In this document: one piece after another, positions 11,831 to 61,133 of the stretch
Numbering within the stretch: the first letter of the stretch is position 1
Layout of the letters: every line of letters begins with the position of its first letter
Assembly: GCF_022828475.1 (NCBI RefSeq)
Contig: NZ_CP059557.1
Span: forward strand, 3,829,470-3,893,469
Length of the DNA: 64,000 nt
Direction of reading: 5' to 3'
Origin: Saccharopolyspora gloriosae
Lineage (GTDB): Bacteria; Actinomycetota; Actinomycetes; Mycobacteriales; Pseudonocardiaceae
The notes under the pieces: model-generated
What the model was told of the DNA's origin: nothing
Seen by the model: the letters and a program-made list of their open reading frames with translations, nothing else
Database searches by the model: none
Position numbers and translations under genes: made by a program

Positions 11831-12014
11831 CCTGATCTGTGAGCTGTGCCTTGTCAGCGGCTGAGCTTCTGAGCAGTGATGGTCGAGCGGGTCGGCGACC
11901 GGCGGGTTCTCAGCGGCTTCCTCGCGTGGACGCCGATTTCACCGTGCGGGGACATGAACGATCAGTCCCGCAACGAGGAAGCCGATGAGGTTCCGCCGAA
12001 TGACCCGCTGCGCA
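11831..12014 (-). repeat. Family-1 palindromic intergenic repeat, copy A
   Basis: It lies between ssuB and the monooxygenase gene. Blocks shared with four other copies are TTGTCAGCGG, GGCGGGTTCTCAGCGGC, GAGGAAGCC and TGAGGTTCCGC, then ACCCGCT. Arms at 11909-11924 and 11974-11989 pair with one mismatch around a 49-base loop. The strand given is only the direction of the flanking genes. The hairpin could attenuate or process the transcript between transporter and enzyme genes. Confidence 0.85.
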
Positions 12015-12049
12015 CAGCACTGCGCGAAGCCTCCTGAGGAAAGTCGTGC

Positions 12050-12946
12050 TCAGTGCACTCCGAGCCAGGAGAGGAGTTCGGCGCGCTGGGCGACGAACGA
12101 CGGCGCGGACACGTCACGCGGACGGGGGTGTTCGACGAGCTGGTCGTGCACGATGCCGCCGTCGTCCATCACCAGCACCCGGTCGGCCAGCAGCAGCGCC
12201 TCTTCGACGTCGTGGGTGACCAGCAGGATCGCGCAACCGTGGCGTTCCCACAGCTCCCCCACCAGCGCCTGCACCTTCAGGCGGGTGAGCGCGTCCAACG
12301 CGGAGAACGGTTCGTCCAGCAGCAGCAGGTCCGGTTCGCGCACCAGCGCGCGGGCCAGCGACGCGCGCTGCGCCTCACCACCGGAGAGCACCTTCGGCCA
12401 CACGTCCACCCGGTGTCCGAGGCCGACCTCTTCCAAGGCGGCGACGGCTCGGGCACGGCTCGGCTTGCCCCGCAGGCCGAGGATCACGTTGCGCCACACC
12501 CGTTTCCAGGGCAGCAGTCGTGGTGCCTGGAAGGCCACCGCGCGCCGCTGCGCCACCTGGACCTCGCCGGTGATCTCGCGGTCGAGGTCGGCGAGGATGC
12601 GCAGCAGGGTGCTCTTGCCGCAGCCGCTGGGGCCGAGCAGCGCCACGAACTGGCCCGGCTCGAGGTCCAGGTCGAGGCCGTTGATGACGGTGTGGTCGCC
12701 GAAGCTCTTCGTCAGTCCGCGCACCTTCGCGGGCAGCGAGCCCTTCGACGACTCCGCCGCGCCGGAGTCCGGTGCGCCAGTGGTCGTGATCCCCGCGTCG
12801 GCGGTCGCGGATTCGTCGGTTGCCGCGCCGGTGGTCGCTCCGTCGGTGGTCGCCGCGCCGGTGGTCGCCGCGCCGGTGGTCGCTTCGTCGGGGGTCGCGG
12901 TGTCGGGGGCGGAGTCCGTCACGCTCCGCGGAAAGCCGGTCGCCAT
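12050..12946 (-). CDS. ssuB: SsuB-like ABC transporter ATP-binding protein with Thr/Ala-rich N-terminal extension
   Basis: 298 residues. The ATPase core has Walker A GPSGCGKST, Q-loop AVAFQAPRLLPW, signature LSGGEAQRASLARAL, Walker B LLLLDEPFSALDALTR and H-loop LLVTHDVEEAL, typical of the nitrate/sulfonate/taurine importer class. About 55 residues of low-complexity Thr/Ala/Gly/Asp sequence precede the core, encoded by tandem 15-bp repeats; this is not usual in SsuB. The ATG at 12946 overlaps the end of ssuC by 28 bases and has AAGGA upstream. It powers uptake with SsuC and SsuA. Confidence 0.88.
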   Translation of the reverse strand: MATGFPRSVTDSAPDTATPDEATTGAATTGAATTDGATTGAATDESATADAGITTTGAPDSGAAESSKGSLPAKVRGLTKSFGDHTVINGLDLDLEPGQFVALLGPSGCGKSTLLRILADLDREITGEVQVAQRRAVAFQAPRLLPWKRVWRNVILGLRGKPSRARAVAALEEVGLGHRVDVWPKVLSGGEAQRASLARALVREPDLLLLDEPFSALDALTRLKVQALVGELWERHGCAILLVTHDVEEALLLADRVLVMDDGGIVHDQLVEHPRPRDVSAPSFVAQRAELLSWLGVH

Positions 12947-13773
12947 GCCAGCACGGTCCTTTCGAGAAGTCGAACGATGAAGTCGGCCACCAGGCCGAGC
13001 AGGGCGTAGAGCACCAGGCAGACCACGATGACGTCGGTCTGGAAGAACTCGCGGGCCATGTTCATCTCGTAGCCGATGCCCGCGTTCGCGTTGATCGTCT
13101 CGCCGAACACCAGCGCCAGCCACGCCGATCCCAGTGAGAACCGCAGCCCCACCAGCGCATTCGGCATCGCGGCGGGCAGGATCACGTGCCGCACTTGGGC
13201 GAACCAGCCGAGCCCGAGCGTTTTCGCGGCTTCCACCAGGCCCTCGTCCACGTTGCGGATGCCGCCGAAGATGTTCATGTACAGCGGGAACGTCACGGCG
13301 AGCGCGATGAGCACGATCTTCGGCGTCTCCCCGATGCCGAACCAGATGATCAGCAGCGGGATCAGGCCGATCACGGGAACCGTGCGCAGCATCTGCATCG
13401 GCGCGTCGGCGATGTCCTCACCGCGCCGGAACAATCCCGAGAGGGTGGCGAGCACGACCGCCGCGATCAGGCCGAAGACCAGCCCGATCGCCACGCGCTG
13501 CACCGACGCCAGCACCGCGTCCTGCAGCCGGCCTTCCTGCCACATCTCCCAAGCGGTGGCCACGACCGTCGCCGGGGAGGCGAGCGTGTCGTCGTCGAGC
13601 ACGCCGGTCGAGCTGAGCAGCTGCCACAGCGCGATCAACGCGATCGGGCTGAAGGTCTTGACCAGCCAGCGGGGAATCCGCTGTTGTCCTTTGGCTCGGC
13701 TGGTCCGCACCGTGATGACGGGGATTCCGCCGGTGTCGGATCGGGCGCTCTCGGGCGCCGTGGGCACAGTCAT
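12919..13773 (-). CDS. ssuC: SsuC-like sulfonate ABC transporter permease
   Basis: 284 residues with about six membrane segments. The BPD-transport EAA loop is at EAAKTLGLGWFAQVRHVILPAAMP, of which the core is EAAKTLGLG followed by ILPAAMP. Other family marks are PIALIALWQLLSSTGV, TVPVIGLIPLLIIWFGIG and GSAWLALVFGETINA. The ATG at 13773 is preferred to GTG at 13779 because GGAG lies seven bases upstream. It is the first structural gene behind the cysteine leader peptide, so control of sulfur-source uptake probably begins here. It forms the membrane channel with SsuB and receives ligand from SsuA. Confidence 0.9.
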   Translation of the reverse strand: MTVPTAPESARSDTGGIPVITVRTSRAKGQQRIPRWLVKTFSPIALIALWQLLSSTGVLDDDTLASPATVVATAWEMWQEGRLQDAVLASVQRVAIGLVFGLIAAVVLATLSGLFRRGEDIADAPMQMLRTVPVIGLIPLLIIWFGIGETPKIVLIALAVTFPLYMNIFGGIRNVDEGLVEAAKTLGLGWFAQVRHVILPAAMPNALVGLRFSLGSAWLALVFGETINANAGIGYEMNMAREFFQTDVIVVCLVLYALLGLVADFIVRLLERTVLAWRPAFRGA

Positions 13774-13846
13774 CGTCACGCTCCACTGGCGTCATGGATC
13801 TGAGGGCGACGGCACGGGTCGCGACCGGCGGAAGATCGAGCGGGGC

Positions 13847-13874
13847 CACCGCACGTCAGGTCGGACGTGCGGTG
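13847..13874 (-). promoter_or_regulatory. Strong hairpin between leader peptide and ssuC
   Basis: Perfect 11-bp arms (CACCGCACGTC / GACGTGCGGTG) around a six-base loop, about 85 bases after the leader-peptide stop and 73 bases before the ssuC start. No T-run follows, so it is not a standard intrinsic terminator. It could be the attenuating or anti-attenuating stem of the leader system, or a Rho-related element. Confidence 0.5.
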
Positions 13875-13960
13875 TCACCTGGGAAGATCAACGGCGCGGA
13901 ACCGGCGGTGCCGTCTCGGGCGAGCGGGCGGGCTCGGCCGCGGCAGTGCGGAGGCAGGGC

Positions 13961-14038
13961 TCAGGCGCTACAGAGCGCGGAGGACACTCGTGCGTTGTCC
14001 ACGTATTCACGCGTGGTGAGCGTCGCCGTCCGGGCCAT
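13961..14038 (-). CDS. Cysteine-type leader peptide upstream of ssuCB
   Basis: 25 codons, MARTATLTTREYVDNARVSSA followed by LCSA and stop. The pattern VD-x2-RV-S-S-A-L-C near the C-terminus matches short leader peptides found before sulfur-assimilation operons in many actinobacteria, in which ribosome stalling at a Cys codon is thought to report cysteine supply. There is no good Shine-Dalgarno, but a promoter is placed so that transcription would begin at or next to the A of the ATG, so translation may be leaderless. It lies 187 bases before ssuC. The assignment rests on motif and position; expression is not shown. Confidence 0.75.
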   Translation of the reverse strand: MARTATLTTREYVDNARVSSALCSA

Positions 14039-14044
14039 GCGATC

Positions 14045-14073
14045 ACGCTAACGGGACGCCCTCCCGGTGTAAA
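14045..14073 (-). promoter_or_regulatory. Predicted sigma-70 type promoter for leader peptide/ssuCB
   Basis: On the minus strand TTTACA (14068-14073) and TAGCGT (14045-14050) are 17 bases apart. The -10 box ends six bases before the leader-peptide ATG, which puts the likely start site on the ATG itself and fits a leaderless transcript. The -35 matches TTGACA in five of six positions; the -10 is weaker. Confidence 0.55.
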
Positions 14074-14338
14074 CCCAACTCGACAGACCAGGATTGACCT
14101 CCCAAACTGTGGGACTCCTGATTCCGCCGCGCACCGCCCGGACCCGGTGGAGCCGCTCACCGAACGCATCCTGCTGCCTGATCCGGTCACCGACCGGATT
14201 CCGGCACGGCCGAAACCCGCCAGGGCCTGCGCGCAGGCCACCAGTCCGCTGAGTCCGCCTCCGCGCGGCACGTGGAATCCCTAGATCCGGCCGGAAGTCG
14301 CCGAACGGCGTGTGCTGTTCGGATACGATCGCGACATC

Positions 14339-15184
14339 ATGAGCTCCACTTCCGGCGAACTGCTGGCCGTCAGCGACCTGCACGTCGCGATGGCCGAGAA
14401 CAAGGACATCGCGCGGAACCTGCGTCCGCGCACCGACCACGACTGGCTGATCGTCGCCGGTGACGTCGGCGAGCTCTCCGAGGAGATCTCCTGGGCGCTG
14501 GGCATGCTCGCCGAGCGGTTCGCGAAGGTCATCTGGGTGCCCGGCAACCACGAGCTGTGGACGCCGAAGCAGGATCCGCTGCAACTGCGCGGCGAGGCCC
14601 GCTACCTGGAACTGGTGCGCCGCTGCCGCGAACTCGGCGTGGTGACGCCGGAAGACGAGTTCCCGGTGTGGACCGGGCGCGGCGGGCCGGTCACCATCGC
14701 GCCGCTGTTCGTGCTCTACGACTACACGTTCCGCCCGGCCGGTACCTCCACGAAGGAGGAGGCCTTGGCGGTGGCCCACGAGTCGGGCGTGGTGTGCAGC
14801 GACGAGTTCCTGCTGCATCCGGACCCGTACGCCACCCGCGACGACTGGTGCCGGGCGCGGCTCGCCCACAGCCGGCAGCGGCTAGCCGAATGTGATCCCG
14901 AGCTGCCGACGGTGCTGGTCAACCACTACCCGCTGGTGCGCGAACCCACCGACGTGCTCTGGTACCCGCAGTTCGCGCAGTGGTGCGGCACCGTGCACAC
15001 CGCCGACTGGCACCTGCGCCACCGCGCCGCGGCCGTGATCTACGGGCACCTGCACATTCCTCGCACCACCTGGCACGACGGAGTGCGGTTCCAGGAGGTG
15101 TCGGTCGGCTACCCGCGCGAGTGGAAGCGCCACGGCCTGCCCGACGATCCACTGCGCCTGGTGTTCCCCGAGGAGAAGCCGTGA
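14339..15184 (+). CDS. pptH: Metallophosphoesterase, phosphopantetheinyl hydrolase (PptH-like)
   Basis: 281 residues from ATG at 14339. Calcineurin-type metal motifs occur in order: AVSDLHVA (DxH), AGDVGE, GNHE, NHYPLV and GHLHIPR. The gene overlaps the phosphopantetheinyl transferase by four bases (GTGA). The same adjacent pair exists in Mycobacterium tuberculosis as Rv2795c/Rv2794c, where PptH removes the phosphopantetheine arm that PptT adds to carrier proteins. Context therefore supports PptH activity rather than a generic phosphoesterase. A TACGAT box nine bases upstream may be a promoter -10, with little room for a ribosome site. Confidence 0.85.
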   Translation: MSSTSGELLAVSDLHVAMAENKDIARNLRPRTDHDWLIVAGDVGELSEEISWALGMLAERFAKVIWVPGNHELWTPKQDPLQLRGEARYLELVRRCRELGVVTPEDEFPVWTGRGGPVTIAPLFVLYDYTFRPAGTSTKEEALAVAHESGVVCSDEFLLHPDPYATRDDWCRARLAHSRQRLAECDPELPTVLVNHYPLVREPTDVLWYPQFAQWCGTVHTADWHLRHRAAAVIYGHLHIPRTTWHDGVRFQEVSVGYPREWKRHGLPDDPLRLVFPEEKP

Positions 15185-15873
15185 TCGAACGCCTGCTGCC
15201 CGGCGAGCTCGCTTGGGAGGAGACCCGCACCGACCCGCCGGAGGCGTGGCTGTTCGACGAGGAGGCCGTGGTGATCGCGCGCGCGGTGGACAAGCGACGC
15301 CGCGAGTTCACCACGGTCCGGCACTGCGCTCGGGCGGCGCTGGCGAAGATCGGCGTACCCGCCGCCGCGCTGCTGCCCGGCGAGCGGGGCGCACCGGGGT
15401 GGCCCGCCGGGGTCGTGGGAAGCATGACGCACTGCGCCGGTTACCGGGCCGCCGTCGTCGGCCTGGAGAAGTCGGTGATCACCGTGGGCATCGACGCGGA
15501 ACCGCACGACGTGCTGCCGGACGGCGTGCTCAACGCCGTGACGATCCCCGCCGAACGCCCCCGCATCGAGGCACTGTCCACAGCGGACCCTTCAGTGCAC
15601 TGGGACCGGATCCTGTTCAGCGCCAAGGAGTCCGTGTACAAGGCGTGGTTCCCGATCACCGGCGAGTGGCTCGGTTTCGAGGACGCCGACCTCACCATCG
15701 ACCCTGCGGGCACCTTCACGGCCCGGCTGCTCAAAACCGGCCCCGACGTGGAGGGCGAGCCCCTCACCTCCTTCACCGGCCGCTGGCTCGCCGACGACGG
15801 CCTCATCATCACCGCCATCACCCGCCTCCCCGGGCGTGAAAGCGTGCAGGGGCGACCGGCGGCGAGCCCCTAG
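15181..15873 (+). CDS. pptT: 4'-phosphopantetheinyl transferase, Sfp/PptT type
   Basis: 230 residues from GTG at 15181, translationally coupled to pptH. Family motifs are GVVGSMTHCAGYRAA, VGIDAEPHD (Mg-binding Asp and Glu) and FSAKESVYKAWFP with the catalytic Lys/Glu. It moves phosphopantetheine from CoA onto a serine of acyl-, peptidyl- or aryl-carrier proteins, activating polyketide, peptide and mycolate-type synthases. Pairing with a hydrolase that reverses the modification suggests a carrier-protein activation cycle under joint expression. Activity is secure; the carrier range is not visible from sequence. Confidence 0.93.
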   Translation: MIERLLPGELAWEETRTDPPEAWLFDEEAVVIARAVDKRRREFTTVRHCARAALAKIGVPAAALLPGERGAPGWPAGVVGSMTHCAGYRAAVVGLEKSVITVGIDAEPHDVLPDGVLNAVTIPAERPRIEALSTADPSVHWDRILFSAKESVYKAWFPITGEWLGFEDADLTIDPAGTFTARLLKTGPDVEGEPLTSFTGRWLADDGLIITAITRLPGRESVQGRPAASP

Positions 15874-15948
15874 ATCCGCCTTCGCCGACCTGACTCGCAC
15901 AAGGGGAACGTGCAGAAACGGCCTTGCGGGCGCAGGAGGCTCCCATGA

Positions 15949-16059
15949 GCGAGGAGGACGAAGCGCTACAACCCGGAGAACCAGATCGACCTGTACCGCG
16001 TCGCCGAACGATTCCTGGCCCGCCACCTCGGCGGCCGCTCACTCGACAACGCGAGCTAG
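15949..16059 (+). pseudogene. Remnant of an S9 prolyl-oligopeptidase C-terminus
   Basis: The frame 15949-16059 encodes RYNPENQIDLYRVAERFLA followed by RHLGGRS and a stop. This closely resembles the last residues of S9-family peptidases (pattern xxPENxLxFYxxxExFLxxHLGGR). No start or catalytic domain remains, and an in-frame TGA lies directly upstream at 15946-15948. It looks like the decayed tail of a deleted gene between pptT and the igr-type operon. The match is by eye and short, so confidence is moderate. Confidence 0.6.
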
Positions 16060-16071
16060 GCGGCGGCAGGC

Positions 16072-17241
16072 TCACTCCGCCGCCAGGACGAGCCCGCTCG
16101 TCGGTACCCCGGTTCCGGCGGTGACCAGCACGTTGTGCACGTCGTTGAGCTGGTTCACCGCCGTGCCGCGGAGTTGGCGCACGGCTTCGGCGATGCCGTT
16201 CATGCCGTGGATGTAGGCCTCGCCGAGCTGGCCGCCGTGGGTGTTGATCGGCAGCGCGCCGTCCAGGCCGATACCGGCGTCGGTGATGAAGTTCCGCGCC
16301 TGGCCGCGTTCGCAGAAGCCGAGCTCTTCCAACTGCACCAGCACGAACGGCGTGAAGTGGTCGTAGAGCACGGCCATCCGCATGTCCTGCGGCCCGGCGC
16401 CTGCCTGCCGCCAGAGCTGCCGGGCGACCAGTCCCATCTCGGGCAGCGCGCCGAGCTCGTCGCGGTAGTAGCTGGTCATGGTGAACTGGTCCGGTCCGCT
16501 GCCCTGCGCGGCGGCCCGGACCACCGCGGGCGGGTTCGGCAGGTCCTTCGCCCGCTCGGCACTGACGACCACGATGGCCACCGCGCCGTCGCTCTCCTGG
16601 CAGCAGTCCAGCAGGTGCAGCGGCTCGGTGATCCACCGGGAGGACTGGTGATCGTCCAGGGTGATCGGGCGCTGGTAGAACCAGGCATTCGGGTTGGTGG
16701 CGGCGTGCTGCCGGTCCACGACCGCGACTCGGCCGAAATCCTCGCTGGTGGCACCGTATTCGTGCATGTAGCGCCGAGCGAACATGGCCACCTGCGCGCC
16801 GGGAGTGCCCAGCCCCACCGGGTAGCTCCAGCTGTTGTCCACTCCGGACGAGGTCGGCGCGGCGGCCGCGGCGGCCTGCACCTGACCGAACCGGTGCCCG
16901 GAGCGCTCGTTGAACGCCCGGTAGCAGACCACGACGTCCGCGATCCCGGCGGAGACGGCGAGCGCGGCCTGCTGCACCGTCGCGCACGCCGCGCCGCCGC
17001 CGTAGTGCACGCGGCTGAAGAAGCTCAGCTCCGGCACGCCGAGTTCGCGCGCGAGGGCGATCTCGGTGTTCTCGTCCATGGTGAACGTCACCAGACCGTC
17101 CACATCGGACGGTTGCAGTCCGGCGTCGGTGAGCGCGGCACGGGTGGCCTCGGCGGCGAGCTGGAGTTCGCTGCGACCCGAATTCTTGGAGAACTCCGTC
17201 GCCCCGATGCCCGCGATGGCGGTCTTACCGGCGAAGCTCAT
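16072..17241 (-). CDS. ltp2: Ltp2-like steroid side-chain retro-aldolase (thiolase fold)
   Basis: 389 residues from ATG at 17241, preceded by GGAGGTGG and overlapping chsH1 by four bases. It has the non-decarboxylating thiolase/SCP-x fold without the usual condensation motifs: TAIAGIGATEFSKNSG at the start, VHYGGGAACATVQQAALAV near residue 85, and NTHGGQLGEAYIHGMNG late. In the cholesterol pathway Ltp2 pairs with the DUF35 domain of ChsH2 and cleaves the 17-hydroxy-C22-CoA intermediate to androstenedione and propionyl-CoA. Order chsE1-chsE2-chsH2-chsH1-ltp2 is the same as in the M. tuberculosis igr operon, which makes this call strong. Confidence 0.93.
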   Translation of the reverse strand: MSFAGKTAIAGIGATEFSKNSGRSELQLAAEATRAALTDAGLQPSDVDGLVTFTMDENTEIALARELGVPELSFFSRVHYGGGAACATVQQAALAVSAGIADVVVCYRAFNERSGHRFGQVQAAAAAAPTSSGVDNSWSYPVGLGTPGAQVAMFARRYMHEYGATSEDFGRVAVVDRQHAATNPNAWFYQRPITLDDHQSSRWITEPLHLLDCCQESDGAVAIVVVSAERAKDLPNPPAVVRAAAQGSGPDQFTMTSYYRDELGALPEMGLVARQLWRQAGAGPQDMRMAVLYDHFTPFVLVQLEELGFCERGQARNFITDAGIGLDGALPINTHGGQLGEAYIHGMNGIAEAVRQLRGTAVNQLNDVHNVLVTAGTGVPTSGLVLAAE

Positions 17242-17678
17242 GCCACCACCTCCGGTAAAGCAACCGTGACGGTGCCGCGCATGTGCTCGCCGAGTCCGTT
17301 GCGGCCCAGCACCTCCACCTCGAAGCGGGTCTCGCCGTCCACGGTGGAGCTGTCGAGGACCTGCCCGAACAACGTCAGCGTGTCGTAGGCGTAGCACGGC
17401 ACGCCGAGCTTCACCGCCACCGCACGCACCAGCGCTTCGGGTCCCGCCCAGTCCGTGACGTAGCGCTGCGCGATCCCGGTGCTGGTGAGGATGTTGACGA
17501 AGATGTCCTTCGATCCCTTGGCCTGCGCCAGATCGCGGTCGTGGTGCACGTCCTGGAAGTCCCTCGTGGCGAGCGCGGTGCTCACGATGAACGTGGGGGT
17601 CATCTCGACGCGTTCCTCCGGCAGGGACGTGCCGACCCGCACTTCGGCGGCCGTCCTAGTCCGTGGCAGCACGCTCAT
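17238..17678 (-). CDS. chsH1: Enoyl-CoA hydratase subunit ChsH1 (MaoC-like)
   Basis: 146 residues, one hot-dog fold. The hydratase signature is RDFQDVHHDRDLAQAKGSKD, with the catalytic Asp and His pair in DVHHD. The ATG at 17678 overlaps the chsH2 stop and its own stop overlaps the ltp2 start, so all three are translated together. With ChsH2 it forms a heteromeric hydratase that adds water to the double bond of the shortened (three-carbon) steroid side-chain CoA ester. It is slightly longer than mycobacterial ChsH1 at the N-terminus. Confidence 0.92.
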   Translation of the reverse strand: MSVLPRTRTAAEVRVGTSLPEERVEMTPTFIVSTALATRDFQDVHHDRDLAQAKGSKDIFVNILTSTGIAQRYVTDWAGPEALVRAVAVKLGVPCYAYDTLTLFGQVLDSSTVDGETRFEVEVLGRNGLGEHMRGTVTVALPEVVA

Positions 17679-20993: not shown

Positions 20994-21060
20994 GTTTTAG
21001 CCGCGATCGCCATCATCCGCAAGACCACCCGCCGAGCAGGCCCACGCGCCCGCCTCACCA

Positions 21061-21172
21061 GGTGAACGGCCCCTTCGCCCAATCCCCTTGGTCAAAGGAG
21101 ACGTTCACTCGACACCACCAGTGAGGTGAACGCCTCCTTTGACCAGCAGGACCGGTCAAAGGAGGCGTTCAC
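21061..21172. terminator. Family-2 GTGAACG hairpin repeat, copy 1
   Basis: Two hairpins lie between the start of chsE1 and the end of chsE3. The second has perfect 19-bp arms (GTGAACGCCTCCTTTGACC, 21126-21144, and its complement 21154-21172) with a nine-base loop. The first (21061-21110) is imperfect. It is about 45 bases beyond the chsE3 stop, which fits a terminator, although no T-run is present. Confidence 0.75.
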
Positions 21173-21216
21173 TCGGGGACATCCACCGGACAACCGCGCG
21201 CGTCGTCCGGGAGGCC

Positions 21217-24199: not shown

Positions 24200-24222
24200 C
24201 CACACCACCCGCGCACGACCAG

Positions 24223-24331
24223 GGGTGAATGCCTCCTTCGACCGATCCGACCGGTCAAAGGAGGCGGACACCGCACCGCGCCCATCAGGTGAACGGCCCC
24301 TTCGACCGACCCGCCGACGGGGCCGTTCACC
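24223..24331. terminator. Family-2 hairpin repeat, copy 2, between convergent genes
   Basis: It contains an imperfect hairpin at about 24225-24276 (GCCTCCTTCGACC paired with GGTCAAAGGAGGC) and a second with 12-bp arms GTGAACGGCCCC (24289-24300) and GGGGCCGTTCAC (24319-24330). Convergent genes end on both sides, which fits a bidirectional terminator. Confidence 0.75.
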
Positions 24332-27495: not shown

Positions 27496-27522
27496 ATTAA
27501 GGAGCCCGTGGGGAATGATCTT

Positions 27523-27703
27523 GGATCTGTTTCTTGTCAGCGGCGGAGCCGCTGAGCGGCGACCACCCCGGCGAAACGACCACCGGCGGGTTCTCTGCGA
27601 CTTCCTCGCGCGGACAGCGATCTCGTGCCGCAGGGGCATGCAGGAGAAATCGATCCCGCGGCGAGGAAGCCGCTGAGGTTCCGCTGAGGGACCCGCTACG
27701 CAC
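27523..27703 (+). repeat. Family-1 palindromic repeat, copy B
   Basis: It carries the shared blocks TTCTTGTCAGCGGCGGAGCC, CGGCGGGTTCTC, CTTCCTCGCG, GCGAGGAAGCCGCTGAGG (27661-27678) and ACCCGCTACGCAC. The left arm has two changes relative to the right arm, so the stem is less regular than in copies C and D. It sits 110 bases before kstR. Confidence 0.85.
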
Positions 27704-27813
27704 ATCACCTTGCAAGGACTCACAAGGCATGAGGTCAACGCAGACCTGCCGGAAGAGGCCGTGCCCGGACGGGCACCGCCGCACCATCGACGCACGTTGA
27801 GAGGACCGACCTC

Positions 27814-29525: not shown

Positions 29526-29837
29526 AACCTCGCCCCTGGCAAGGTAAACGTGAAATGTCCTCAGAAGGTCACGTGCGGTCTAGAACACACTCCGCTCGCC
29601 TACCGACGACCGCCGAACCTCGGGCTCCGCACACCCGCCACCGGCACGCGAGGACACCTGAACCCGATCTCCCGACGACCCGCTGACCAGGCAGGATTCC
29701 TGATACCAAGCGGGCAGTCCACCTCACTCCTCCACCGCACCCGAGTGCATCCCGGCACGGAGAGAGATGTACCTCCCGCCAACCACGGCGTGGCGAGTTG
29801 TCGCCGCGCGAGAGAGCCGACGGCCCGGGTGATCGTT
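29526..29837. other. Gene-free interval upstream of the MBL hydrolase
   Basis: About 310 bases with no convincing coding frame. It includes a half-site TAGAACACA near 29580 that lacks the GTT half of a KstR operator. Promoter elements for the MBL gene must lie here but none stands out. Confidence 0.5.
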
Positions 29838-30005
29838 TGGTCTGCTTCTTGTCAGCGGCGGAGCCGATGAGCAGCGACCAGCTGGAGCAACCGGCACCGC
29901 GGCGGGTTCTCAGCGGCTTCCTCGCGAGGACGGCCTTTCCCTCGTGGCGAAGGAGCCCGCAGCGAGGAAGCCGCTGAGGTTCCGCTACCCGACCAACCAC
30001 GCAGG
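29838..30005 (-). repeat. Family-1 palindromic repeat, copy C (best-preserved stem)
   Basis: Arms CTCAGCGGCTTCCTCGC (29909-29925) and GCGAGGAAGCCGCTGAG (29962-29978) pair over 17 bases without mismatch around a 36-base loop. The flanking blocks CTTGTCAGCGGCGGAGCCG and TGAGCAGCGACCA recur in copies B and D. It ends 13 bases before the 3' end of fadA6, so it may act as its terminator. Confidence 0.9.
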
Positions 30006-30018
30006 CCGTCCCACCAAC

Positions 30019-40227: not shown

Positions 40228-40249
40228 GAGTGCCTTCGAATGACCTGGA

Positions 40250-40430
40250 CAGGGGGCGGGGTGGCGGAACCTCAGCTGCTTCCTCGCTGCGGGGTCGATG
40301 TCGCAAGTGGCTCCGCCACGAGCGAAATCGCTGTCCTCGCGAGGAAACAGCTGAGAACCCGCCGATGGTCCGGTTGCTCAAGCTGGTCGCTGCTCATCGG
40401 CTTCGCCGCTGACACGACACGGATCAAAAG
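40250..40430 (-). repeat. Family-1 palindromic repeat, copy D (inverted orientation)
   Basis: Same blocks as copy C but in reverse. Arms 40271-40287 and 40339-40355 pair. One pair is changed on both sides (G-C to T-A) and another becomes a G-U wobble when read as RNA on the minus strand. It fills the gap between the hydratase and fadE31. Confidence 0.88.
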
Positions 40431-40472
40431 ATCTTTCCGCAGGGGTTTCCCCGCCATGTTCGGGAGGGCGTC

Positions 40473-43760: not shown

Positions 43761-43793
43761 CACCGCCCCCGTTCCCCGGCTCCCGCCGAACCA

Positions 43794-43905
43794 GGTGAAC
43801 GTCCCCTTCGCCCATTCCTGCCGACCGAAGGCGACATTCAGCTCGACGAGCTACTGGACGGCCCGTTCGACCGGTGCGTATCGGTGAAGGAAGCATTCGC
43901 CCAGG
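43794..43905. terminator. Family-2 repeat, copy 3 (degenerate), between fadE33 and mce4F
   Basis: It begins AGGTGAACGTCCCCTTCGCC and ends with a loose inverted match GGTGAAGGAAGCATTCGCC; inside is a small AGCTCGACGAGCT hairpin. The position between two convergent gene ends matches copies 2 and 4. Confidence 0.6.
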
Positions 43906-53616: not shown

Positions 53617-54387
53617 CTACCGGGACAAGGCATAAGCCGCCGTCGCGCCTCCGTCGGCCACGAATTCGGCGCCGGTGCAGTAGGAGCTCTCGTCACTGGC
53701 CAGGAACAGCACCAAGTTGGCGATGTCCGCCGACTCCCCGAGCCGCCCGAGGGCGAGCCGGGACTTGGCGAAGCCGTCCACGGCGCCGCCCGCGGCGCCG
53801 CCGGTGGCGTCGCGCAGCATCCCGGTGTCGATCATGCCCGGGTGCACCGAGTTCACCCGGATTCCGCGCTCGCCCAGCTCCAGCGCGGCGACCTTCGTCA
53901 TCCCGCGGATGGCGAACTTGCTCGCCGCGTAGGCCACCGTTCCCGGCATCCCGGCCAGACCCTCCACAGAGGACACGTTGACGATGGACCCACCGTTGCG
54001 CATCGAACTCAGCACCGCGCGCATGCCCAGGAAGGAACCGATCTGGTTGACCCGCACGACCCGCTCGTAGTCCGCGAGCGCCGTATCGGCCAGCGCCGCC
54101 AGGTGCAGCACTCCGGCGTTGTTGACCAGCACGTCGACCGGGCCGAACGCGGACTCCGCGGCCCGGATCGCCGCGGCCCACTCCTGTTCGGAAGAGACGT
54201 CGAGGTGCCGGTAGAGCGCGGACTCGCCGAGCTCACCGGCCAGCGCCGCACCCGCCTCGTCGGCCACATCGGCGAGCAGGACGCGGGCTCCTTCGGCGAC
54301 GAACCGGCGCGCGGCGGCCGCGCCCTGGCCACCGGCCGCGCCCGTGATGATCGCGACCTTGTCCCGCAGTCGTGCCACAGCCGTCAC
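53617..54387 (-). CDS. SDR, FabG3-like 20-beta-hydroxysteroid dehydrogenase
   Basis: 256 residues from GTG at 54387, overlapping the aldehyde dehydrogenase stop (GTGA). TGAAGGQGAAAARRFVAEG, LYRHLDVSSEQEWAAAI, NNAGVLHLAALAD, VNVSSVEGLAGMPGTVAYAA and SKFAIRGMTK strongly resemble Rv2002 FabG3, a 3-alpha/20-beta-hydroxysteroid dehydrogenase. It lies 42 bases before mceG with no promoter in sight, so it is probably co-transcribed with the importer. Steroid substrate is inferred from similarity and place. Confidence 0.83.
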   Translation of the reverse strand: MTAVARLRDKVAIITGAAGGQGAAAARRFVAEGARVLLADVADEAGAALAGELGESALYRHLDVSSEQEWAAAIRAAESAFGPVDVLVNNAGVLHLAALADTALADYERVVRVNQIGSFLGMRAVLSSMRNGGSIVNVSSVEGLAGMPGTVAYAASKFAIRGMTKVAALELGERGIRVNSVHPGMIDTGMLRDATGGAAGGAVDGFAKSRLALGRLGESADIANLVLFLASDESSYCTGAEFVADGGATAAYALSR

Positions 54388-55892
54388 ATCATTTCCGCGG
54401 TCAACGGCATGAGCACCGTCTTGAGCTCGGTGTAGGCCTCGTAGGCGCTGCGCCCGCCCTCCCGGCCCAGCCCGGACTGCTTGTACCCGCCGAAGGGCAG
54501 GTGCGGCTCGACCTGGAAACCGTTGATGCCGACCGTTCCGGCGCGCAGCTTGCGCGACACCCGGAAGGCGCGCTGCGCGTCGGCGGTGAACACGCCCGCC
54601 CCCAACCCGTACTCGGTGTCGTTGGCGAGCCGGATCGCCTCGTCCTCCTCGGTGAACGGCACCACCGACAGCACCGGCCCGAAGACCTCCTGCTGGGCGA
54701 TGTTCATCGAGTTGTCCACGTCCGCGAAGATCGCCGGGGTCACGAAGTTCCCGGCGCTGAGGTCGCCGTCCGCGCGTTCGCCGCCGGTGACGAGCCGAGC
54801 GCCCTCCTGCTTGCCACGCTCGACCAGGTCCAGCACCCGCCGCAGCTGCTTGTCGTTGATCAGCGGGCTGGCCAGCACTCCCGGATCGAACGGATCGCCG
54901 TAGGTGACCGACCCGGCGATCATCTCCGCCGCGCCGATGAACTCGTCGTAGACATCGCGATGCACCAGCGCCCTGGTGTGCGCGACGCACGCCTGCCCGG
55001 ACAGGCCGAGCGTGACCATGCCCATCGCCGTCATCCCGGCCATTCCGGCGTCCGCGTCGGGGAACACCAAGGCGGGGCTCTTGCCGCCGAGCTCCAGCGA
55101 CACCCGCTTCATCGTCGACGCCGAGGCCTCCACGATGCGCCGTCCGACCTCGCGGCTGCCGGTGAAGCTGACCTTGTCGACCATCCGGTGCGTGATCAGC
55201 GCTTCACCGGTCGGATTCCCGGTGCCGGTGACGACGTTGACGACGCCGCCCGGAAGTCCCGCCTCCGTCAGGAGTTCCACCATCCGCAGCACGGCGAACG
55301 ACGCGTACTCGGACGGTTTCAGCACCACGGTGCACCCCGCGGCCAACGCGGGAGCGACTTTCTGGGCGAACAGCAGGAACGGTGCGTTCCACGGCAGGAT
55401 CGCCGCGACCACGCCGATCGGTTCCCGCAACGTCATCGCCAGGTGATCGCCGCCCTGGTACGGCGGCAAGGTCTCGCCACCGGCCTTGTCGATCCACCCG
55501 GCGTGGTGGTCGAAGGCGTCGGCGGCGATGTCGACGGAACCCGCGTAGACCGTGCCGAACGACAGCGGCACCCCGTTGTCCAGCGCCTGCAGCCCGCGCA
55601 GCTCTTCGGCGTGCTCGCGCAGGGATTCCGCGTAGCGGTGCAGGATTTTCACCCGCCGCCCGGCGGGCAACGCCGGCCACTCGCCCTCGTCGAACGCGCG
55701 TCGCGCCGCGCGGACCGCCTCGTCGACGTCCTCGGCGCCGGCGACGGGGAACTCGCCGACCTCTTCCTGAGTGGCCGGGTGCAGGTGGGTCCAGGTCTGG
55801 CCGGAGCGGGCCTGCCGCCACTCGCCGTCGATCAACAACGAGCCGTTGCGCAGCCCGACCTTCTCGCGATGCTCTTGCACGGTCAGCGACAT
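54384..55892 (-). CDS. NAD-dependent aldehyde dehydrogenase
   Basis: 502 residues from ATG at 55892 (AGGAGG ten bases upstream; a GTG nine bases earlier abuts it). Landmarks: PWNAPFLLFAQKVAPALAAG, FTGSREVGRRI, catalytic Glu in SLELGGKSPALVF, catalytic Cys in SGQACVAHTRALVH, and QQEVFGPVLSVVPF. Together with the alcohol dehydrogenase upstream it could oxidise the C26 alcohol or aldehyde of the sterol tail to the acid, which would matter because cyp125 is not nearby. That role is inference. Confidence 0.85.
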   Translation of the reverse strand: MSLTVQEHREKVGLRNGSLLIDGEWRQARSGQTWTHLHPATQEEVGEFPVAGAEDVDEAVRAARRAFDEGEWPALPAGRRVKILHRYAESLREHAEELRGLQALDNGVPLSFGTVYAGSVDIAADAFDHHAGWIDKAGGETLPPYQGGDHLAMTLREPIGVVAAILPWNAPFLLFAQKVAPALAAGCTVVLKPSEYASFAVLRMVELLTEAGLPGGVVNVVTGTGNPTGEALITHRMVDKVSFTGSREVGRRIVEASASTMKRVSLELGGKSPALVFPDADAGMAGMTAMGMVTLGLSGQACVAHTRALVHRDVYDEFIGAAEMIAGSVTYGDPFDPGVLASPLINDKQLRRVLDLVERGKQEGARLVTGGERADGDLSAGNFVTPAIFADVDNSMNIAQQEVFGPVLSVVPFTEEDEAIRLANDTEYGLGAGVFTADAQRAFRVSRKLRAGTVGINGFQVEPHLPFGGYKQSGLGREGGRSAYEAYTELKTVLMPLTAEMM

Positions 55893-55973
55893 CGTCGTCA
55901 CTCCTCCTGATCGTCCGGTGCGTGTGGTCCGGAGCGGCGGAGCCGATCGCGGACTCCGTCGGGTCGTGCTCGC

Positions 55974-56873
55974 TCAGCCCAGCGCGAGCAGGTCGTCGCT
56001 GGTGAACATGCCGTCCCCACGTGATGCGAAGTAGTCGCCGACGGATTCGTGGAGTTCGGCGGTGGTCCAGGTCGGCCCGGCGGTGTCGAACCGGCGCTCG
56101 ATGGCCGGTGGTGACATCAGCACGACCTTGCCGCCGTGCACGACGAACACCTGCCCGTTGATCCCCGCTGCGGCAGGCGCCGCCAGGTAGGTGACGAACG
56201 GCGCGACGTGCTCGGTGGACAGCGGGTCGACGCCGTCCTCCGGCACCGGACCGAAAGTGTCCGCGGTCATCCCGGTCCTGGCTCGCGGGCAGATCACGTT
56301 CGCCCGCACGCCGTAGCGGGCCGTCGCGCGAGCCGTCGATACGGTCAGCATGGCGATCCCGGCTTTGGCCGCCGTGTAGTTCGGCTGTCCCCCGGATCCG
56401 AACAGGAACGCCTCCGACGCGGTGTTCACGATCCGCCCGTACACCTCGCCACCGGAGTCCTTCGCCTGCCGCCGCCAGTGCGCGGTGGCCGCCCGCGAGA
56501 GCAGGAAGTGCCCGCGCAAGTGGACTCGGATGACGTCGTCCCATTCTTGGTCGGTCATGTTGAAGATCGTGCGGTCGCGCAGCACGCCCGCGTTGTTCAC
56601 CACCACGTGCAAGCCGCCGAAGCGGTCCAGCGCGGTCGACAGCAGCCCGTCGGCGACCTCGTCGGCGCTGATGTCCCCGCGCACGGCGACCGCTTTCCCA
56701 CCGGCGGCCTCGATCTCGCCCACCACCGCGTCCGCGGCTTCGGAGACATCGTTGACCACCACCTCCGCACCGGCCGCGGCCAGCGCGAGCGCCTCGGCCC
56801 TGCCGAGACCTCCGCCCGCACCGGTCACCACGGCCACCTTCCCGGCCAGGCTCAGCTCCGCCCGATCATCCAC
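55974..56873 (-). CDS. hsd4A: Hsd4A-like SDR, beta-hydroxyacyl-CoA/17-beta-hydroxysteroid dehydrogenase
   Basis: 299 residues. TGAGGGLGRAEALALAAAGA, NNAGVLRDRTIFNMTDQEWD, TASEAFLFGSGGQPNYTAAK and ANVICPRARTGMTA match the N-terminal unit of the type 4 17-beta-HSD and Rv3502c. It should oxidise beta-hydroxyacyl-CoA esters of the steroid side chain. GTG at 56873 has TGAGGAG six bases upstream and is preferred; GTG at 56891 is also open. Co-directional with the alcohol dehydrogenase 25 bases away. With fdxD, fadE26, fadE27 and fadD17 it recreates the Rv3502c-Rv3506 neighbourhood. Confidence 0.87.
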   Translation of the reverse strand: MDDRAELSLAGKVAVVTGAGGGLGRAEALALAAAGAEVVVNDVSEAADAVVGEIEAAGGKAVAVRGDISADEVADGLLSTALDRFGGLHVVVNNAGVLRDRTIFNMTDQEWDDVIRVHLRGHFLLSRAATAHWRRQAKDSGGEVYGRIVNTASEAFLFGSGGQPNYTAAKAGIAMLTVSTARATARYGVRANVICPRARTGMTADTFGPVPEDGVDPLSTEHVAPFVTYLAAPAAAGINGQVFVVHGGKVVLMSPPAIERRFDTAGPTWTTAELHESVGDYFASRGDGMFTSDDLLALG

Positions 56874-56898
56874 AACAGACTCCTCAGTCACCGGGGCG

Positions 56899-57987
56899 CT
56901 AGTCGAAAGTGACGATCTGGCGGACCAGCGCGGCGTCGCCGCCCTTCAACGCCGCCAACCCGTCGTTGATGTCGGACAGTGCGATGCGCCTGCTGATCAT
57001 GCCTTCGAGGTCGAGGCGCCCGGCACGCCAGAACCGCAGCATCCGGTCGATGTCCCGGCGCGGATCGGCCGAGCCGTAGAACGACGGAAGGATCTTGCGC
57101 TCGTTGATGAACAGCTCCTGCGCCGTGAACTCGACCTTCTGATCGTCACCGCCCGCGCCGACGATCACGACGGTGCCGCCGCGTCGGGCGGCGTCGTAGG
57201 CGGCGCGGATGGTGCCGGACGACCCGACGACCTCGATGGCGTAGTCGAACCCGGCGCCGCCGGTGAGTTCCTGCTTGAGTTCTTCGAATCCGTCGGGAGT
57301 GGTGGCGTGGGTCGCGCCGAAGCGCTTCGCCGCGTCGTGCTTCGCGGTCACCGGGTCGACCGCCACGATCTCGGTCGCACCCGCCAGCCGAGCGCCCTGG
57401 ATCACCGAGATCCCCACCCCGCCGCAGCCGATCACGACCACTGTGGACCCCGGCTCGACCTGCGCCGTGTTGAGCACCGCGCCGACGCCGGTGAGCACTC
57501 CGCAGCCCAGCAGTGCCGCCACCTCGAACGGCACGTCCGGATCGACCTTGATCGCCCCGTCGCGCGGCAGCACGAGTTCCTCCGCGAACGTGCCGCACCC
57601 GGCGAAACCGAACGTGGGTTCCGCCCCCACTTCGAACCGGGGTGAGGTGAACGCGGCGATGGTGTGCACCGCGCACAGATGAGCCTGCCCGTGCAGGCAT
57701 TCCCGGCAATCGCCGCACGGGGGTACGAAGGTGATGGTGACGTGATCACCGGGGGCGAGGTCGGTGACCTGCTCACCCACCGCCAGCACCTCACCGGCGC
57801 CCTCGTGGCCCATCACTCCGGGGGCCAGCGCGGGCAAGGTTCCGTTCATGGCGGACACATCGCTGTGGCAGATTCCCGCCGCGCGAATCCGGACGTGCAC
57901 TTCGGCGGGTCCTGGCGCCACCACCGCGGCATCCGTCCGGACGTCGAGCTCGTCATCGCCGATCTGCTTGAGCACCGCTGCCTTCAC
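56899..57987 (-). CDS. Zinc-dependent alcohol dehydrogenase (MDR family, AdhD-like)
   Basis: 362 residues. Catalytic zinc: GICHSDVSAMNG and GHEGAGEVLAVG. Structural zinc: four Cys in CGDCRECLHGQAHLC. Rossmann loop VVVIGCGGVGISVIQGARLA. The class is that of AdhD/NDMA-type mycobacterial alcohol dehydrogenases. It heads the long minus-strand operon that runs into hsd4A, the aldehyde dehydrogenase and mce4, with a near-consensus KstR site 63 bases upstream. A sterol C26 alcohol is a plausible substrate but unproven. Confidence 0.86.
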   Translation of the reverse strand: MKAAVLKQIGDDELDVRTDAAVVAPGPAEVHVRIRAAGICHSDVSAMNGTLPALAPGVMGHEGAGEVLAVGEQVTDLAPGDHVTITFVPPCGDCRECLHGQAHLCAVHTIAAFTSPRFEVGAEPTFGFAGCGTFAEELVLPRDGAIKVDPDVPFEVAALLGCGVLTGVGAVLNTAQVEPGSTVVVIGCGGVGISVIQGARLAGATEIVAVDPVTAKHDAAKRFGATHATTPDGFEELKQELTGGAGFDYAIEVVGSSGTIRAAYDAARRGGTVVIVGAGGDDQKVEFTAQELFINERKILPSFYGSADPRRDIDRMLRFWRAGRLDLEGMISRRIALSDINDGLAALKGGDAALVRQIVTFD

Positions 57988-58049
57988 CGGCCTGTCTCCT
58001 CACCGAGTCCGAGGCCGCCGCACAGGCGACTGTTACGTGCGACACACAG

Positions 58050-58063
58050 TAGAACTCGTTCCC
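58050..58063. promoter_or_regulatory. KstR-like operator at the head of the adh-hsd4A-mce4 operon
   Basis: TAGAACTCGTTCCC matches TnnAACnnGTTnnA except the last base. No other operator-like site was seen between here and mce4F. Confidence 0.7.
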
Positions 58064-58077
58064 GTTATCTTCAAGGC

Positions 58078-58281
58078 TCAGATTTCCGGCTCGTTTCCAG
58101 CGATAAAGAGCGCGCCCTTGGGGCACAGCTGCACCGCTTTGGTAACACGTTCTACCGATTCGTCCGGGATCGGACGGTGGATGTGCAGCTGTTCGTCCTC
58201 GTCCAGTTCGAAGACCGCGGGAGCCAAGCCGGCGCACACGCCGTTGGCCTCGCACAGTTCAGGTCGCACGCCGATCTCCAT
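58078..58281 (-). CDS. fdxD: Small ferredoxin FdxD-like
   Basis: 67 residues. The cluster ligands are Cys in PELCEANGVCAG (CxxNxxC) and the Cys of QLCPKGAL. The central position that in 4Fe-4S ferredoxins is Cys is Asn, so a 3Fe-4S or atypical 4Fe-4S cluster is expected; mycobacterial ferredoxins vary at exactly this place. The next genes (hsd4A on one side, fadE26-fadE27-fadD17 on the other) match the Rv3503c neighbourhood. Likely redox partner of a P450 or of an acyl-CoA dehydrogenase. GGAAGCG precedes the ATG. Confidence 0.88.
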   Translation of the reverse strand: MEIGVRPELCEANGVCAGLAPAVFELDEDEQLHIHRPIPDESVERVTKAVQLCPKGALFIAGNEPEI

Positions 58282-58459
58282 CGCTTCCTCCGCACTCGTG
58301 GGACTCGGGCCATCGGACGCTCGGCGCGGCGATCCTCACCAGAGCAACGAGCCGGCCGTGGCCGATGCACTGCTCCATCCGGGCGTTCACCCGGCTGAAC
58401 CGCTTCCGCGACAGGGCCGCGCTCTTCGCCGAACCCGTGGCAACCAGCGAAATCTGATG

Positions 58460-58473
58460 TAGAACACGTTGCA
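58460..58473. promoter_or_regulatory. KstR operator on the fdxD side of the divergent promoter
   Basis: TAGAACACGTTGCA matches TnnAACnnGTTnnA in full. It is 179 bases from the fdxD start and 137 bases from fadE26. Confidence 0.85.
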
Positions 58474-58558
58474 CATTAGCTCACCTCGGCAACTCCTTGG
58501 CGAAAAAGACGACCCCGAGCAGAGGTCGACTAGCCGATGCGCCCCGGTCTATGGTCAG

Positions 58559-58572
58559 TGGAACTTGTTCCA
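58559..58572. promoter_or_regulatory. KstR operator on the fadE26 side
   Basis: TGGAACTTGTTCCA matches the consensus in full with near-perfect dyad symmetry (TGGAAC/GTTCCA). It ends 37 bases before the fadE26 ATG. Confidence 0.9.
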
Positions 58573-58609
58573 CCGGTCCGGACAGGACAACACCCGCCAG
58601 GGGGGCCAC

Positions 58610-59788
58610 ATGCACATCGGCTTCACGTCCGGTCAGCAACGGCTGCGGGAGCGGCTGCGCGACTACTTCGCGGCACTGATGACCGACGAGCTCCGCGCGG
58701 AGCTGACCACCGGCGGCGACTACGGCGACGGCGACGCGTACAAGCGGATCGTGCGGCAACTGGGCACCGACGGGTGGCTCACCCTCGGCTGGCCCCGGGA
58801 GCACGGCGGGGACGGCCGCACGATGCTGGAACAGCTCATCTTCACCGATGAGGCCGCCATCGCGGGAGTTCCGGTGCCGTTCCTGACGCTCAACAGCATC
58901 GCACCCACCATCATGCGCTACGGCACTGCCGAGCAGCAGGCGCACTACCTGCCCGGCATCGCCGCCGGAGAGCTCCACTTCGCCATCGGCTACTCCGAAC
59001 CGGAGGCGGGCACCGACCTCGCCTCGCTGCGCACCACGGCGGTCCGCGACGGCGACGAGTACGTGATCAACGGCCAGAAGATGTGGACCAGCCTGGTGCA
59101 GTACGCCGACTACATCTGGCTGGCCTGCCGCACCGATCCGGCGGCGCGCAAGCACAAGGGGCTCAGCATCCTGGTCGTGCCGACCGACGCGCCGGGCTTC
59201 TCCTGGACCCCGGTGCGCACCGTCGCCGGGCCGACCACCAGCGCCACCTACTACGAGGACGTGCGGGTGCCCGCGACGGCACTGGTCGGCGAGGAGAACG
59301 CGGGCTGGCCGCTGATCACCAACCAGCTCAACCACGAGCGGGTAGCGCTGACCTCGGCCGCACCGATCACCTCGGCGTTGGCGGGCGTGCGGGAATGGGC
59401 GCGGGACACGGCGCTTCCCGACGGGCGCCGCGTGCTCGACCAGGAGTGGGTGCGCAACCACCTCGCGCGGGTGCACGCGGGCGCGGAAGTCCTCAAGCTG
59501 ATGAACTGGAAGATCGCCTGGACGGCGGAGCGGGAACCCGCGCCCGCCGCTGCCTCGGCGACCAAGGTCTACGGCACCGAGCTGGCCACCGAGGCGTACC
59601 GGCTGCTGATGGAGGTGCTGGGGCCTGCCGGACACGTCCGCGCCGGTTCACCCGGTGCCGCGCTGCGCGGCCGGATCGAGCGGATGCACCGCTCGGCACT
59701 GATCCTCACTTTCGGCGGCGGCACCAACGAGGTGCAGCGCGACATCGTCTCCACCGTCGGCCTCGGACTTCCCCAGTCCCGGCGTTGA
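58610..59788 (+). CDS. fadE26: Acyl-CoA dehydrogenase subunit ChsE4 (FadE26-like)
   Basis: 392 residues from ATG at 58610 (AGGGGGG upstream). LTLGWPREHGGDGRTMLEQL, IGYSEPEAGTDLASLRTTAV, VINGQKMWTSLVQYADYIWL and ILTFGGGTNEVQRDIVSTVG are the landmarks; it is paralogous to ChsE2 in this window. In mycobacteria FadE26-FadE27 (ChsE4-ChsE5) is the heterotetramer for the first beta-oxidation step on the eight-carbon cholesterol side chain. First gene of a KstR-type operon. Confidence 0.92.
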   Translation: MHIGFTSGQQRLRERLRDYFAALMTDELRAELTTGGDYGDGDAYKRIVRQLGTDGWLTLGWPREHGGDGRTMLEQLIFTDEAAIAGVPVPFLTLNSIAPTIMRYGTAEQQAHYLPGIAAGELHFAIGYSEPEAGTDLASLRTTAVRDGDEYVINGQKMWTSLVQYADYIWLACRTDPAARKHKGLSILVVPTDAPGFSWTPVRTVAGPTTSATYYEDVRVPATALVGEENAGWPLITNQLNHERVALTSAAPITSALAGVREWARDTALPDGRRVLDQEWVRNHLARVHAGAEVLKLMNWKIAWTAEREPAPAAASATKVYGTELATEAYRLLMEVLGPAGHVRAGSPGAALRGRIERMHRSALILTFGGGTNEVQRDIVSTVGLGLPQSRR

Positions 59789-59825
59789 TCCGGTTCCCGC
59801 CGCCGTCTCCACGAGGAGTTCCACG

Positions 59826-60953
59826 ATGGATTTCGCACCGACCGAGGCACAGCACGACCTGGCCGAGCTGGCTCGCGACATCTTGACCGACCGGGTGACC
59901 GCCGAGCGGCTGCGCGAAGTGGAGTCCGGACCGGACCGATTCGACCGTGCGCTGTGGACTGAGCTCGGCAAGGCAGGAGTGCTCGACGCCGCGTTGCCGG
60001 AGGCGCTCGGCGGCGGTGGCTGCGGGTTGCTGGAGCAGTGCGGCGTGCTGATCGAACTCGGCAGGGCGGTCGCACCGGTGCCCTACCTGGCGTCGCTGGT
60101 ATCGGGCGCAGCGGCGGTGGTGCGCTTCGGCGATTCGCGCCAGCAGGAGCGGTGGGCACGTCCCGCCGGTGACGGTGAGGTCGTGCTGACGACGGCGTTC
60201 GCCGAGGGAGCCGACCCCGCTCCGGCCGTTCCTGCGACGACCGCCGAGCGGGCCGGCGGGAAGTGGGTGCTCAACGGGGTGAAGGTGGCGGTGCCCGCCG
60301 GTTCGATCGCGGACTTCTTCCTGGTCCCGGCCTCGACCTCGGACGCGACGCTGGTGTTCGTGGTGGCCGCCGCCGACGAGGGCGTGTCGGTGCGGCGTCA
60401 GGAGGTCGTCGATGGCGACAGCGAAGCGTGGCTGGAACTCGCCGGGGTCGCGCTGGACTCCGATCGGCTGCTCGGCGAGGACGAGGCCGCCGACGTCGCG
60501 GCCTGGCTCGAGGTTCGCGCCACGCTGGGTGTGTGCGCGGAACAGCTCGGCGTGCTGGAGCGGGCGTTGGAGCTGACCGCCGAGTACGCCGGTGAACGCA
60601 CCCAGTTCGACCGGCCGATCGGGACGTTCCAAGCCGTGTCCCAACGGCTCGCGGACGCCTACATCGACGTCGAGGCGGTTCGGTTGACGATGTGGCAGGC
60701 CGCGTGGCGCGCGGCGGAAGGGCTGCGCTGCGACACCGAAGTGGCGACCGCGAAGTTCTGGGCCGCCGAAGCCGGGCATCGCGTCGCCCACACCGCGGTC
60801 CACGTCCACGGCGGGGTCGGCATCGACCTCGAACACCACCTGCACCGGTACTTCGTCGCGGCCAAGCGCCGCGAGTTCGTCCTCGGCGGCGCCACCGCGC
60901 AACTGCGCAGGATCGGCACGGCACTCGCCGAGGACGAACCGGAGCAGGACTGA
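59826..60953 (+). CDS. fadE27: Acyl-CoA dehydrogenase subunit ChsE5 (FadE27-like)
   Basis: 375 residues. GVLDAALPEALGGGGCGLLE, ERTQFDRPIGTFQAVSQRLA and AVHVHGGVGIDLEHHLHRYF are the landmarks; overall similar to ChsE1. It is 37 bases behind fadE26 and forms the second chain of the heteromeric dehydrogenase. Start ATG at 59826 has GAGGAG upstream. Confidence 0.92.
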   Translation: MDFAPTEAQHDLAELARDILTDRVTAERLREVESGPDRFDRALWTELGKAGVLDAALPEALGGGGCGLLEQCGVLIELGRAVAPVPYLASLVSGAAAVVRFGDSRQQERWARPAGDGEVVLTTAFAEGADPAPAVPATTAERAGGKWVLNGVKVAVPAGSIADFFLVPASTSDATLVFVVAAADEGVSVRRQEVVDGDSEAWLELAGVALDSDRLLGEDEAADVAAWLEVRATLGVCAEQLGVLERALELTAEYAGERTQFDRPIGTFQAVSQRLADAYIDVEAVRLTMWQAAWRAAEGLRCDTEVATAKFWAAEAGHRVAHTAVHVHGGVGIDLEHHLHRYFVAAKRREFVLGGATAQLRRIGTALAEDEPEQD

Positions 60954-60991
60954 TCCCGCCTGGAGTCGAACGCACCGCGGCGTTGGCTCTC

Positions 60992-61133
60992 GCCGGCGCC
61001 GAATCCGATGAACACCGACCACCGCCGGGTCCTCGGACGCCTCCGCGCAAAGGCGACGATGTCCGCTTTGGCGGGGCCGCCGCGGAACGCCGGTGGGACG
61101 GCTGAGGTTCCACCGCCCGACTCACCACGCAGA
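60992..61133 (+). repeat. Family-1 repeat, copy E (degenerate)
   Basis: It retains CCACCGCCGGGTCCTC, CGCCTCCGCG, GGCTGAGGTTCCACC and ACTCACCACGCAG in the family order, but the stem is broken. It sits between fadE27 and fadD17. Confidence 0.6.

Follow-up and report, generated by a model that had tools for sequence, protein, structure and literature searches.

A high-copy modular MITE family of Saccharopolyspora and its likely mobilisation by a resident IS5-family transposase

MITEs linked to the IS5 family are short elements without a transposase that carry the ends and the target duplication of a resident IS and occur as many dispersed intergenic copies, and duplication of a TNA target is a trait of the IS1031 subgroup of that family. 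The repeat family analyzed here, first noticed in a 64-kb window of a Saccharopolyspora chromosome, resembles such MITEs in lacking a transposase, in its IS-type ends and duplication and in its dispersal between genes, but it differs from other IS5-linked MITEs in its copy number (at least 310), its 70% GC actinomycete host, its long internal hairpin with a hypervariable paired stretch and its mini-hairpin arrays. Our conclusion, held with a probability of roughly 0.88, is that these repeats form a modular MITE family of high copy number and that the transposase of a resident IS5-family element mobilises them in trans; we regard the MITE reading as close to proven. MITEs as such are a known kind of element; what makes this family an unusual variant is its paired hypervariable segment together with its hairpin arrays.

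Several other described systems invite comparison. Judging from the accessible part of PMC3049150, the pneumococcal BOX repeats share a modular build with a variable number of internal units, although their modules are other ones, and for the Saccharopolyspora family both the ends and a likely transposase have been identified. The BrickBuilt element of Porphyromonas gingivalis is likewise a MITE with an internal tandem array, for which the abstract of PMC4596501 gives 19 copies and 23-nt units and mentions no variable hairpin of this kind. REP sequences and GTAG- and CGTC-tagged palindromes are also intergenic and lie in some cases near stop codons, but in the accessible parts of PMC3733652 and PMC12306157, neither of which contains the genus name Saccharopolyspora, REP-type palindromes measure 20-40 bp, as against 208-239 bp with IS5-type ends for the present family. 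A literature search, covering few subscription journals, showed no such family for Saccharopolyspora among the papers listed, and the accessible part of an RNA-seq account of S. erythraea (PMC3610266) reports 190 putative intergenic ncRNAs and does not describe the repeat family.

Copies in the window and across genomes

The window, meaning the whole 64-kb stretch analyzed, spans positions 3,829,470-3,893,469 of the host chromosome (genome G000; a single contig of 6,878,695 bp, dnaA at 895). An earlier note had described five copies of a palindromic repeat in it; four of them (c1-c4) are certain, and the fifth (c5) is probably a degenerate remnant of the family:

c1, 11819..12034, plus strand (model orientation): copy with degenerate ends, read by eye
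c2, 27501..27722, plus strand: 222-bp copy, a terminal inverted repeat present at either end, each with 4 mismatches
c3, 29820..30015, plus strand: copy with eroded ends and a short inner hairpin, approximate outer limits
c4, 40240..40450, minus strand: copy with eroded ends, approximate outer limits
c5, 60984..61119, plus strand: weak, probable degenerate remnant, 20 bits

The similarity noted by eye holds under alignment statistics, c1-c4 being linked pairwise by blastn of the copies against the window with E-values of 1e-16 to 4e-41. A covariance model (R1) trained on 21 genome copies places c4 at 40258-40421 on the minus strand (E 3e-43), c2 at 27528-27690 (E 5e-38), c3 at 29843-29991 (E 1e-37) and c1 at 11845-12002 (E 2e-33), scores obtained partly by construction because c1-c4 belong to the training set. 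The remnant c5, absent from that set, is found by R1 with an E-value of 0.0008, and the best match elsewhere in the window reaches 13.5 bits. The stem arm attributed to all copies, GCGAGGAAGCCGCTGAG, is exact in c2 and c3 only; c1 ends in GATGAG and c4 has CAGCTGAG. As had been claimed, no copy overlaps a gene predicted by a codon-usage gene caller. The ends of c1 and c2 can be placed and lie, as listed, slightly outside the limits first given. Read by eye, c1 is flanked by TGA at 11816-11818 and again at 12035-12037, and an automatic end search shifts its ends by at least one base and yields the flanks TCA and CAG; the flanks of c2, TAA and CAA, are not identical. No Rfam family reached its gathering score in the window. 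The window also holds a second dispersed palindromic family, REP-like and arranged around GTGAATGCCTCCTTTGACC...GGTCAAAGGAGGCGTTCAC, at no fewer than four places (21042-21189, 24205-24307, 43767-43901 and 62772-62907).

Beyond the window, independent support comes from the two halves of the long hairpin. Allowing at most two mismatches, the host chromosome contains 317 matches to the left half and 318 to the right, against 4 and 2 for reversed-pattern controls, and the family therefore numbers at least about 310 copies there. The whole-genome covariance-model search recovered many further copies, and the best 150 matches, which were those scored in G000, all have E-values of 2.9e-20 or lower. 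With at most 70 matches scored in each other genome, the family is present in all five other genomes of the genus searched (49 to at least 70 scored copies each). Under strict filters that lose weak matches, R1 also finds it in 4 of the 19 genomes searched from other genera within the same taxonomic family and in none of the 16 that belong to the same order but to another family. An exact pattern is present in 99 stretches of named genomes, and the 80 that are listed come from Saccharopolyspora species and Halopolyspora algeriensis.

Ends, insertion sites and the resident IS5-family element

Complete copies, at 208-239 bp, are too short for a transposase gene and are bounded by terminal inverted repeats of about 17 bp, GGRGTCCTTNCAGAATG. 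Most copies lack recognisable IS-type ends, which remain in about 10% at the 5′ side and 17% at the 3′ side: a score of at least 13/20 is reached by the 5′ end repeat in 27 of 280 (0.7% at random positions) and by the 3′ end repeat in 47 of 280 (4.7% at random positions). Among ends scoring at least 14, TNA lies directly outside 12 of 27 at the 5′ side and 14 of 30 at the 3′ side, where an estimate from base composition predicts about 2%. Twelve pairs of end repeats stand 208-239 bp apart; in five of them the same TNA triplet flanks both ends (TTA in three, TGA in two), and the other seven lack identical TNA flanks. Pairing between the two ends is only weakly better within than between copies (mean 7.6 vs 7.0 in 86 copies of the B1 type; scores of at least 10 in 13/86 vs 7%), implying that most copies no longer have matching ends.

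The same scan for end repeats also picked out four places in G000 where the two repeats of a pair stand exactly 908 bp from each other, and these are copies of an IS:

IS copies, G000:C1:1232120-1233027, 1737645-1738552, 2615125-2616032 and 4833600-4834507: four copies identical over 908 bases

These copies are apparently recent, and all four are flanked on both sides by TTA, a TNA triplet; the accessible part of PMC3281130, on IS5 groups, has no information on TNA. An uninterrupted 282-codon frame (274 aa from the first ATG) encodes an IS5-type DDE transposase (NF033580 IS5, E 1.5e-68; PF13340; PF01609). The ends of the IS begin GGGGTCCTTGCAGAATGATCTTGT and GGGGTCCTTTCAGAATGCTG, those of complete MITE copies approximately GGRGTCCTTNCAGAATGATCTT and GGAGTCCTTTCAGAATGGCC. 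In one case an IS copy and a MITE copy are immediate neighbours, separated by TTA, and another IS copy lies beside or within a MITE copy.

Comparison with relatives provides an exact empty site. At 5,668,882 the host reads CTTA, 216 bp of element and TTACG, and the corresponding sequence is CTTACG in G001 and TTTACA in G003, TTA being single at the empty site and doubled around the insertion. G002 has a copy at the same place from which the long hairpin is deleted, and G004 and G005 match across the joint. At 2,166,412, G003-G005 match across the joint, and the gap in G001 and G002 contains family members with other ends. More generally, the presence and absence of copies often differ between species in 400-kb stretches around the origin at 86-90% identity; bases 1-400,000 of G001, whose dnaA lies at 6.47 Mb, served as an additional sample. 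The earlier note's suggestion of a genome-wide, non-autonomous MITE-like element is thus corroborated by ends and TNA flanks common to a resident IS5-family element and by an exact empty site. These include the target-site duplication and matching transposase that it had proposed looking for.

The REP-like alternative raised alongside it fares differently. A Y1 (RAYT/IS200) transposase acting on hairpins of single-stranded DNA, as in the movement of REP/BIME-type repeats, would suit a hairpin-rich element of which 106 of the 150 best scored copies oppose replication (model orientation), and G004, G005, G010 and G017 do carry both the repeat and a Y1 gene. The PF01797 profile, however, has no match in G000-G003, the end repeats and doubled TTA of complete copies resemble a DDE element, and these complete copies are 208-239 bp long. 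Part of the strand bias, moreover, is gene orientation, because most called genes are also on the leading strand (588/1016, 58%, vs 67/97 elements taken in gene orientation, 69%, in the G000 stretches read). We consider this route highly improbable; the single-strand transposition that the strand bias had suggested is left unsupported, there being no Y1 match in G000.

For the MITE reading, the shared ends make the 908-bp IS the likely mobiliser. In G017 the transposase has nine full-length matches, 84-85% identical, and the seven loci read there have ends of the same kind, with identical TNA flanks in six. At a threshold of E 1e-40, 7 of 41 genomes have matches to the transposase; G002-G005 are not among them and yet contain 49 to at least 70 scored repeat copies each, and G006 and G022 have transposase matches but no R1 match under the strict filters. 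Because the two distributions disagree, the IS may be only the latest helper. Many G001 copies carry other ends, such as TGTCTTTGATCTTG...CAAGATCAAAG, several of that genome (L086, L106 and others) ending in TGTCTTTGATCTTGG...CAAGATCAAAG, and a search of 3.2 Mb gave no convincing IS with ends of the G001 type or of the array copies. These G001 copies have the same core as those of G000 with different ends.

Internal anatomy and the hypervariable paired seven

Read in the orientation GCGGAACCTCAG...CTGAGAACCCGC, the element opens with one end repeat, from which a spacer of about 22 nt leads to a long hairpin; a short hairpin centred on CAGCGGCTTCGCCGCTGACA follows, and the second end repeat closes the element. 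The long hairpin is built from GCGGAACCTCAG, seven variable bases and CTCGCTGCGGGATC, an inner hairpin of which there is more than one type, and then GCTGTCCTCGCGAG, the seven bases of the opposite arm and CTGAGAACCCGC; some copies lack it altogether. In many copies the long hairpin is followed by an extra hairpin, CTATGTGCTTCGCACATA, and by mini-hairpins in an array, CACGGCTTCGCCGCAAGG being an example. By eye, array units look regular near the long hairpin and degenerate farther off (L252:12274, L287:761 and others), a pattern suggestive of addition or renewal of units at a single end. A hairpin resembling an intrinsic terminator lies directly ahead of some array copies (L069:11290, L108:10445, L071:19002). 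A small conserved open reading frame across the left half was considered and rejected, since indels between copies would shift its frame.

The seven bases vary, and their pairing is kept. Of 172 hairpins from several genomes, 168 carry a stretch of exactly seven bases in each arm, and these include 47 different sevens. The two sides are perfectly complementary in 119 of the 168, compared with 10% when arms are swapped between copies, and 1126 of 1176 seven positions are paired, compared with 69.5% after swapping. Covariation was assessed on 62 of 64 cores; the two left out were one whose inner type is inverted and one that contains an indel. Each of the seven pairs has changed on both sides in 12-29 sequences, and the ten flanking pairs are almost invariant, a conservation due in part to how the cores were chosen, since they were picked for different sevens and a length of 99 and located through those flanks. 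Over the whole structure, cells with changes on both sides number 220, compared with 67 after shuffling, and the share of paired cells is 94.8%, as against 84.0% when shuffled and 41-51% when slid. Two hairpins (L083:19470 and L084:7755) are identical except at five of the seven pairs. G000 and G001 have two sites in common at which the element lies in the same orientation; there the sevens of the two genomes disagree at seven positions in one case and six in the other, yet each genome keeps its own seven complementary. Such divergence could have arisen through gene conversion, through repeated insertion or through the rewriting of both arms together.

That the paired seven is a diversified stem barcode, as opposed to the product of passive drift, seems to us unlikely. 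If it were one, it might be an identity tag that limits recombination between copies or is recognised by a protein or RNA partner; alternatively, it might record a mechanism that alters both arms in concert.

Placement at genes and meaning of the family

Gene positions were taken from a purpose-made codon-usage caller; one tally took 82 of 83 copies, leaving out a single copy at an edge. The 97 copies examined in G000 fall into 54 in co-directional gaps, 33 in convergent gaps and 10 in gaps between divergent genes. Where the 5′ side of the element faces a stop codon in a co-directional gap, the hairpin starts within 57 nt of it in 28 of 31 cases (6.0 expected under uniform placement), and in convergent gaps it does so in 25 of 29 (11.5 expected). 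The same distance is kept in 5 of 22 gaps in which the element faces a gene start (6.5 expected) and in 1 of 10 divergent gaps (1.3 expected). These counts used 31/32, 29/33, 22/22 and 10/10 gaps, respectively, gaps that were too short being dropped.

One way to account for this proximity is insertion targeted to stop codons, TGA and TAA being themselves TNA sites. TGA makes up 1823 of 2035 called stops and some copies abut stops, but among 17 TNA-flanked end repeats only two lie at a called stop, compared with 14% of background TNA sites. We therefore hold such targeting to be quite improbable, and for copies with recognisable ends the stop codon is unsupported as the TNA target.

A reading compatible with the MITE origin is that the repeat has been domesticated as a 3′-end RNA module, a putative terminator or mRNA stability signal selected after its spread by transposition. 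The closeness of the hairpin to stops and not to gene starts or divergent gaps, the scarcity of copies between divergent genes and the strong compensatory change in the stem speak for it, but sites vary between species, many being empty in relatives, and in 5 of the 11 gaps that have an R1 match in both G000 and G001 the orientation, by reading, is opposite. Parasitic repeats, too, survive at gene 3′ ends, as the accessible part of PMC3049150 argues for pneumococcal repeats, which are over-represented between convergent genes. Domestication is a possibility that we entertain tentatively. Our best guess is that the tight placement near stops reflects survival or function at transcript 3′ ends.

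Under the MITE reading, the transposase would bind the shared ends and move the element, and the copies that survive would be intergenic ones, for the most part located at the 3′ ends of genes. With age, copies may shed their ends or the long hairpin, and slippage may lengthen or shorten the mini-hairpin arrays. Once transcribed, a hairpin just past a stop codon could, at a guess, act as a 3′-end structure in termination or the control of decay.

By our estimate (about 315 copies of 200-350 bp), the family makes up some 1% or more of a chromosome in the Saccharopolyspora group, mostly at the 3′ ends of genes. Its paired seven is a natural experiment in palindrome evolution in which sequence is free, pairing is kept and flanks are conserved. 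With ends, an insertion rule and a likely mobiliser now assigned to the family, its effect on transcripts becomes testable by comparing filled with empty sites across species.
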